The translations under genes and the position numbers were made by a program. From positions 310,001 to 374,000 of the forward strand of contig NZ_CP046640.1 in the NCBI RefSeq assembly GCF_017751145.1: a stretch of 64,000 nt of DNA, given 5' to 3'. A model generated the notes under the pieces. The model saw only the letters and a program-made list of their open reading frames with translations, was not told the DNA's origin and ran no database searches. The stretch is from Iocasia fonsfrigidae (lineage in GTDB: Bacteria; Bacillota; Halanaerobiia; Halanaerobiales; DTU029). Positions 10,141 to 53,936 of this stretch are shown here, piece by piece (position 1 is the stretch's first letter; each line of letters opens with the position of its first letter).

Positions 10141-10177
10141 TGTTAGTTAAGTGTACTATGTGATTAAGAAATTGTGG

Positions 10178-10450
10178 ATAACTTTGAAGACCGACAGATA
10201 TATTTGTTTCCCTTATCGTACGCTTACAGGTACTCCGTATTTAAGCAGAGCGCACAAGAACAGTTTGAGGTTGCGCTGCGGTGTTCTACCTCCGCTTACT
10301 GTCTAGAAATTCTCCTTCGGCGTCGTGCCTACGGATAATTTCTAGAGTCGTACAACAAATATATCTGTCTGGTTAATAATTTATTGATTAACTATGTGTA
10401 ATAAATAGTTTGAGTTAAGAAAGCTGATGTATTTGATTAAGTCTGGGTGG
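10178..10450 (+). repeat. Dispersed foldback element, copy A
   Basis: Longest copy (about 273 bp) of a four-member family. It begins ATAACTTTGAAGACCGAC. The outer arms GACAGATATATTTGT (10193-10207) and ACAAATATATCTGTC (10355-10369) pair perfectly, and inner arms CTAGAAATT/AATTTCTAG pair within. A conserved tail ends GATTAAGTCTGGGTGG. Unlike the other copies it contains, at 10233-10283, a stretch matching the reverse complement of the 52-bp tandem repeat at 34133-34263. It lies about 40 bases past the hppA terminator. No open frame with a ribosome site was found. It is most likely a non-autonomous mobile or REP-like element, or a structured RNA. Confidence 0.8.
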
Positions 10451-10508
10451 CGAAGCCACTTTGCCCAAACTATAGATTTTGTATCTATGTATACAGGAAA
10501 TTGCTTGT

Positions 10509-13346: not shown

Positions 13347-13380
13347 AGGGTAAATTTTTGTAGTTTGCATTGTTGGTGGG

Positions 13381-13488
13381 TAACTTTGAAGACCGACAAA
13401 TATATTTGTCTGATTTATGATAACAAGTTGACTTTGTGTAAGAAATATTCTTAAGTAAGGTTAATAATTAGTAATTAAGTTTGGATGG
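13381..13488 (+). repeat. Dispersed foldback element, copy B (collapsed)
   Basis: Short copy (about 108 bp). It begins TAACTTTGAAGACCGAC, and the two outer arms have merged into one perfect palindrome, GACAAATATATTTGTC (13395-13410). The body then continues as in the other copies (GATTTATGATAACAAG, TTGACTTTGTGTAAG, TTAATAATT, AATTAAGTTTGGATGG). The whole interior between the arms is missing, as expected from a deletion between them. It sits 34 bases after the ABC ATPase stop. Confidence 0.78.
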
Positions 13489-13494
13489 TTTTCT

Positions 13495-45963: not shown

Positions 45964-45970
45964 TGTGTAA

Positions 45971-46150
45971 ATAACTTTAGAGGCCGACCAATATATTTAC
46001 TTACCTTGTCGTATACTACGGCGTCCATGCCTCCAGACAATTTCTAGAGTCGTCCAGTAAATATATTGGTCTGATTTATGATAAATAGTTAACTTTGTGT
46101 AAAAAGTGGTTCTAAGAAAACACTAATGATTGTTGATTAAGTCTGGATGG
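45971..46150 (+). repeat. Dispersed foldback element, copy C
   Basis: About 180 bp, beginning ATAACTTTAGAGGCCGACC. Outer arms GACCAATATATTTAC (45986-46000) and GTAAATATATTGGTC (46057-46071) pair perfectly. Tail TTGTTGATTAAGTCTGGATGG as in copies A and D. Compared with copy D it lacks about 38 bp between two CGGCGTCC direct repeats, which explains its smaller size. It is located between a terminator and the end of a convergent XRE gene. Confidence 0.82.
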
Positions 46151-46185
46151 CGAAGTTACTTTTTTCTGGCAGCAAATAGTGTAAT

Positions 46186-53502: not shown

Positions 53503-53650
53503 TATGATTGAAAATAAGCGGAGCCTACCTGAACTACCCTCTAATGATATTTAGGGGAAGACTCAGGAAAGAGGCACCTTATTTGTAGAATCATTTAGTT
53601 TGTAATATAGTAATAAAATGATATAATAATACTGTTGAGGGTTTTTTGAT
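53503..53650. other. Intergenic region before repeat copy D
   Basis: About 150 bases with no ribosome-site-linked frame. GATATAATAATACTG near 53631 contains a TATAAT without a matching -35. Nothing else recognised. Confidence 0.4.
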
Positions 53651-53868
53651 GACTTTAAAGACCGACAAATATATTTACTTCCCTTGTCGTGCACTACGGC
53701 GTCCTGCCTTCGTTTACTGTCGAGAAATTGTCCTCCGGCGTCCATGCCTCCAGACAATTTTTAGAGTCGTCCAGTAAATATATTGGTCTGTATTATGATA
53801 ACAAGTTGACTTTGTGTAAGAAGAATTCCTATAGTAAAAATTAATAATTGTTGATTAAGTCTGGATGG
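53651..53868 (+). repeat. Dispersed foldback element, copy D
   Basis: About 218 bp, beginning GACTTTAAAGACCGAC. Outer arms GACAAATATATTTAC (53664-53678) and GTAAATATATTGGTC (53774-53788) pair with one mismatch. Inner arms AAATTGTC/GACAATTT also pair. Two direct copies of CGGCGTCC are at 53697-53704 and 53736-53743. Tail TTGTTGATTAAGTCTGGATGG. It lies between the pgi terminator and the pseudokinase gene, so it may form part of that gene's leader. Confidence 0.82.
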
Positions 53869-53936
53869 CCGTTAGGCGGCTTGTTCTTTGATTATAACAA
53901 TAGAGAAAGAGGAATAAAAAAAGAGGGGGGATTTAA

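Follow-up and report, generated by a model that had tools for sequence, protein, structure and literature searches.

What are the four foldback sequences dispersed over the window, the whole 64,000-nucleotide stretch of Iocasia fonsfrigidae DNA analysed here (positions 310001-374000 of a single-contig 3.93-Mb genome)? The original prediction had described four copies of one architecture and left the choice between a non-autonomous transposon and a new structured RNA family. All four were found in the window in one orientation, as had been stated. Copy A (10147..10466, + strand; 5' boundary approximate) is an IS91-type non-autonomous element that bears the modules termed K and X, with GCCC at 10463-10466 in the position of GTTC. 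Its K, with X inside, occupies 10193..10369 on the + strand (outer arms 10193-10207 and 10355-10369; 102.7 bits and E 2.3e-21 against the covariance model R1), the folding strand probably being the - strand; its ori-like 3' hairpin TGGCGAAGCCA (10448..10458, +) is identical to the 3' hairpin of the IS91 element. Copy B (about 13370..13489, +; 5' boundary approximate, 3' end decayed) is a short form without K, built around a palindrome at 13395-13410. Copy C (45967..46166, +), which follows a terminator directly, is truncated at its 5' end and has TTTC at 46163-46166 in the GTTC position and an internally shortened K at 45986..46071, + strand (outer arms 45986-46000 and 46057-46071; R1 match 58.9 bits, E 2.8e-11). 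Copy D (53650..53886, +) ends in GTTC at 53883-53886 and carries K at 53664..53788, + strand (outer arms 53664-53678 and 53774-53788; R1 match 134.8 bits, E 9.8e-29), which also probably folds on the - strand; its ori-like 3' hairpin TGGCCGTTAGGCGG (53866..53879, +) has a loop of a type that recurs among IS91 homologues in another genus. The arms quoted for copies A and C are exact in the sequence, and the four doubly compensated positions are correct. Two details of the shared architecture need correction: copy B lacks the insert and has only the 16-nt palindrome GACAAATATATTTGTC, and the module of copy C is internally shortened. Likewise, the placement right after terminators is clear for A and C, loose for D and absent for B.

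The family is far larger than the four members first proposed, with 88 copies genome-wide. A pattern for the 5' block gave 88 matches in the 3.93-Mb chromosome and none for a reversed-pattern control; the final 88 exclude the coding-region match at 3153653, rejected as a family copy because the rest of the element is missing, and include the copy at 1025189, found with a laxer pattern. A DnaA box (TGTGGATAA) in the 5' block was dismissed as a functional site, being exact in 37 of 88 copies and conserved no better than its surroundings. In orientation, 87 of the 88 copies point with replication: the sign of the GC skew, read from the fetched pieces, changes between 1.956 and 2.079 Mb, and the copies before this switch are all +, those after it all -, the exception being the copy at 2097099 near the terminus. 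A related-frame copy at 778790 also breaks the rule. Since 93% of the genes near copies (386/414) are on the leading strand, copy orientation is confounded with transcription, and 75 of 89 repeat contexts lie between co-directional genes. At eight copies the neighbouring genes conflict: they meet tail-to-tail at two and head-to-head at five, and at one both lie on the lagging strand. Seven of these copies, including the last-named, follow replication; the eighth is the terminus copy. These contexts favour replication over transcription as the orienting factor, in a suggestive but not conclusive way. Among the neighbours of individual repeats are the tmRNA gene (tag ANDNNYALAAA; L082:3497-3852), immediately downstream of the one at 674385, and, as Rfam matches near others, a T-box leader (L066:1321-1547) and a glycine riboswitch (L138:8048-8139).

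Several repeats adjoin a 441-codon transposase gene. The encoded protein matches Y2_Tnp (PF04986, E 6.5e-36) and Zn_Tnp_IS91 (PF14319, E 2.6e-23), scores 286.8 bits against the NCBIfam IS91 equivalog (cut-off 125), and contains the HUH motif (HIH) and two tyrosines (YIGRY); the resident element qualifies as an IS91 member by its Y2 HUH transposase with the IS91 zinc-binding domain. The genome holds eight near-identical genes of this family, directly preceded by a repeat in six cases and by another copy of the insertion sequence (IS) in two. Comparison of the ends revealed that repeat and IS have their terminal 22 bases at the 3' side in common, GGGTGGCGNAGCCATTTT followed by GTTC (score 44, maximum 28 in 5000 shuffles), the 3' hairpin of the frame, GGGTGGC-GCCATTTT, abutting GTTC. 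At the 5' side, where the two are only partly alike, they have the blocks TAGGAAAYTATG and TTGTGGATAACTT in common (p 0.00015). Both ends are shared as expected of a family member, most strongly in young copies and in decayed form in old ones, and the tetranucleotide agrees: GTTC follows the hairpin in young copies, GTTC or one-base variants in old ones. The two end motifs are also kept in IS homologues of about 65% identity in another genus of the order. GTTC or GAAC has been described as the IS91 target (PMC7758954).

The 5' similarity is lost gradually, 61 of 88 copies exceeding the shuffled 95% level in the ter region, and head-to-tail arrays are common. For IS801, one-ended products are documented in which the right end is constant and the left end varies (PMC3189936), a behaviour that the graded loss fits by analogy. 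The frame ends are unlike each other, a 5' block and a 3' hairpin; a classical miniature element would have terminal inverted repeats and a target duplication of fixed length, a feature not systematically tested for this frame. Given the ends shared with a resident IS91-family element, the repeats are probably non-autonomous rolling-circle elements that borrow its transposase in trans; this mobilisation is inferred from the ends, without a transposition assay or empty sites. Elsewhere in the genome, two further and different IS91-type (Y2_Tnp) genes lie on the lagging strand (L140 and L149; genome 1594913 and 1607085), and near 2281900 (L110) a lax 3'-block search downstream of a repeat matched sequence from the interior of the IS91 element, perhaps a one-ended product or an IS fragment. 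A single-copy Y1 transposase of 252 aa, similar to REP-associated transposases, is encoded at L061:1108-1866 (- strand; 77.3 bits, NCBIfam cut-off 80). It was rejected as the direct partner of the frame: its short flanks carry no repeat, and the nearest copy is about 2 kb off with a gene between.

Inside the frame, the internal sizes are quantised at 16, 124, 175, 184 and 235 nt, because the modules K, X and Y nest. From arm to arm, 18 copies contain the palindrome only, 40 contain K (about 124 nt), seven K and X (about 51 nt), four K and Y (about 60 nt), 13 all three, and six other forms. Identical internal forms occur with different 3' blocks, and the parts have therefore been shuffled. A second frame has the same IS91-like ends, another outer stem and K inverted; K and this inverted relative can be aligned from end to end (score 107, maximum 59 in 2000 shuffles), and the loops are preserved although the stem sequences have changed. 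K is also carried by a third frame with CCAATTATATTAATGG arms and without recognisable IS91 ends (L202, L208, L210), which may belong to another transposon. At L202, L207 and L210 there is a further nested module beginning with ATTAGAAGCACGG.

The covariance model R1 was built from 14 K sequences of this genome alone, so its search of other genomes is an independent test of the structure. Of the 59 genomes of the class, 13 contain full-length K by this model; they represent 11 genera and include the present genome. A single complete genome of 2.47 Mb holds about 49 copies. A second model, R2 (21 sequences), searched in 398 genomes sampled across the phylum, found K in at least 13; among the matches listed, three genomes of two families (G097, G138 and G324) lie outside the class. 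K is hence present in 15 other genomes of the phylum, 12 by R1 and three by R2. In other genomes K was detected by the structure model alone, exact patterns having failed there. Exact-pattern scans of genome contigs and viral contigs returned neither frame nor K, nor did BLASTN against phages and plasmids, where a lone 33-nt plasmid match was discounted. At gathering or E-value threshold, K matches nothing in Rfam 15, whether at its own or at foreign loci, and a literature search on repeats in this order found nothing relevant.

The search of genome and relatives with a covariance model, which the original prediction had proposed, also settled whether the copies covary beyond chance. Within this genome, 11 pairs of K are changed on both sides, and 97% of the alignment cells pair, against 37-46% in slid pairings. 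In the sequence-only alignment A3, 29 of 30 pairs are changed on both sides and 93.9% of cells are paired (34-44% slid). In alignment A4, with 98 distinct copies from 15 genomes, these values are 30 of 30 and 94.5% (34-44% slid), and the covariation score is 0.767 versus 0.241 in shuffled alignments (0/500); A4 was fitted to the structure model and leans towards structure. Neither outcome that would have refuted the prediction was met: genome-wide and cross-genome copies do covary, and nothing points to decayed coding sequence. A coding remnant was rejected, as the stems covary over genomes and no reading frame lies inside. K is a conserved structured family, folded as an outer stem with two hairpins and under compensatory change.

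Outside this genome, K rides in other carriers. In G324 the frame has terminal repeats and flanking duplications of 8-11 bp at all nine copies examined, which represent five distinct insertions; here (L288-L292) the K-bearing miniature transposon has itself inserted into a larger mobile repeat, some 1.5 kb long, which accounts for five identical copies of it. The G039 frame has other terminal repeats, with flush duplications of 11-25 nt in four of nine copies, above the shuffled level; one of them covers a whole terminator hairpin. In further genomes K is found with its outer stem alone. This outer stem differs between genomes with its pairing kept.

Which strand folds? A folding strand is expected to tolerate G·T mismatches better than A·C. 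On the strand first described, A·C exceeds G·T (41 versus 17 distinct events, p 0.002, loop-closing pair excluded), so that on the complement G·U exceeds A·C, by a modest margin. Moreover, folding is more favourable for the complement in 95 of 98 copies (mean -46.2 versus -39.8 kcal/mol). Among the unpaired bases, conservation is highest at positions that include the TCC of the two apical loops (T and C at 91-100%), which reads GGA on the complement. On that strand, 82 of the 98 distinct copies have GGA in each of the two apical hairpins, and the mean number of GGA is 5.4 versus 3.2 in mononucleotide shuffles. The copies are related, which makes the strand p-values optimistic. Taken together, the wobble asymmetry, the folding energy and the conserved GGA loops suggest that the complement strand folds; this is compatible with RNA and no proof of it. 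An RNA on the strand first described was discarded, because G·T there is not in excess over A·C but rather the reverse. The compensation described in the original prediction is confirmed, and the three asymmetries suggest the complement of the strand originally folded. That K and frame are separable had not been foreseen, nor had the complement as the suggested folded strand.

Several explanations compete for these observations. That the repeats are host regulatory or terminator elements of 3' regions, oriented by transcription, would agree with the 75 of 89 co-directional contexts and with the several copies after terminators. It is disfavoured by the seven of eight conflict-context copies that follow replication, and by the shared IS91 ends, head-to-tail arrays and nested insertion, which show mobility; we consider it very unlikely. 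Pairing could also arise without function if hairpin-templated correction, by strand switching in replication, matched the arms, so that covariation would merely be mutation. In favour of such correction, the arms form long inverted repeats that are almost perfect, several hybrid copies persist although their arms do not match, and A·C and G·T mismatches both occur. Yet strong conservation marks the apical and junction bases throughout the phylum while the stems are rewritten, and correction would not keep unpaired loops; the wobble types, too, are unequal (p 0.002). We therefore judge this reading improbable and rank it third among those of K.

The remaining question is what the folded K does. 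Our leading guess is a structured RNA that hitchhikes on the transposons and has GGA in its apical loops, with its function unproven and no transcript at hand. A specific version, in which the complement strand yields an undescribed structured RNA offering its GGA loops to an RNA-binding protein such as CsrA, and transposon spread seeds copies of a regulatory RNA across genomes, must itself be called unlikely on present evidence. The second-ranked reading takes K as a DNA device: a hairpin-specific enzyme, for instance a REP-associated Y1 (HUH) transposase, would recognise the pair of hairpins in extruded or single-stranded form and move K between palindromes and transposon frames, in the way that REP sequences are mobilised. 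In support, the genome has a single Y1 transposase gene similar to the REP-associated ones, and K is found in either orientation relative to frames and chromosomes. Conservation is also concentrated in the loops and the outer arms vary, opposite to the pattern of ordinary terminal-repeat transposons. However, the Y1 gene is not flanked by K and falls just under the NCBIfam cut-off, and the one-strand energy advantage and the wobble pattern are also expected from RNA. A DNA device is accordingly a possibility that we keep, though a less likely one.

Based on the observed shared ends, copy number, orientation, nesting, occurrence of K in other genomes and frames, and covariation, we consider it likely that the locus comprises two nested layers, an IS91-type non-autonomous frame and K as its conserved folding cargo; trans mobilisation, the active strand and the action of K are inferred. 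Both halves of the initial alternative are supported, one inside the other, for the frame shares IS91 ends and K recurs in unrelated frames, with the RNA role unproven. In the putative model, the frame is gene-less and lies between a ter-like 5' end and an ori-like 3' hairpin that abuts GTTC. The transposase of the resident IS91-family element would introduce a nick at the ori end, and the single strand that it transfers would be joined at GTTC. Such copying would leave no target duplication, run mostly in the direction of replication, and often give head-to-tail arrays and variable 5' ends. Most copies carry K, which is more widely distributed than the frame and is found within unrelated miniature transposons across the phylum. 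In this model compensation keeps the fold of K because one strand, most likely the complement of that first described, is functional when folded.

This model is reminiscent of the IS91 family (IS91, IS801, ISCR) and its one-ended products, which have a Y2/HUH transposase with a zinc-binding domain, distinct ends, an ori-end hairpin, GTTC adjoining the 3' end and variable 5' ends; the repeats differ in lacking a gene, in their number (88 versus eight IS) and in their structured cargo. As in the non-autonomous Helitrons of eukaryotes, the elements are gene-less, have ends in common with a rolling-circle transposon and bear a hairpin near the 3' end, whereas the repeats are bacterial and their IS91-type transposase has no helicase; this is a working likeness, for which no homology was tested. 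REP/BIME sequences are likewise high-copy intergenic hairpins, and a Y1 transposase of the REP-associated type is present here, but K is a two-hairpin cloverleaf of about 124 nt with a variable outer stem, and no repeat flanks the Y1 gene. Finally, the several GGA motifs on the complement strand of K, two of them in hairpin loops, recall CsrA-binding RNAs of the CsrB/RsmZ type; by contrast, K has no Rfam match, no demonstrated transcript and many copies inside transposons. Without expression or binding data, this analogy may serve as a lead.

In summary, one structured module travels in miniature transposons of quite different mechanism: one kind is rolling-circle, and the other two have terminal repeats together with target duplications. 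Ordinary miniature transposons keep their ends and leave the inside free to vary, but here it is the inside that is conserved, and its outer stem differs in each genome. Because the IS91-type frame follows replication almost without exception, the part played by single-stranded targets in rolling-circle transposition can be tested, and more than 100 copies together with two covariance models make the dispersal of a functional RNA or DNA hairpin by transposons directly testable.
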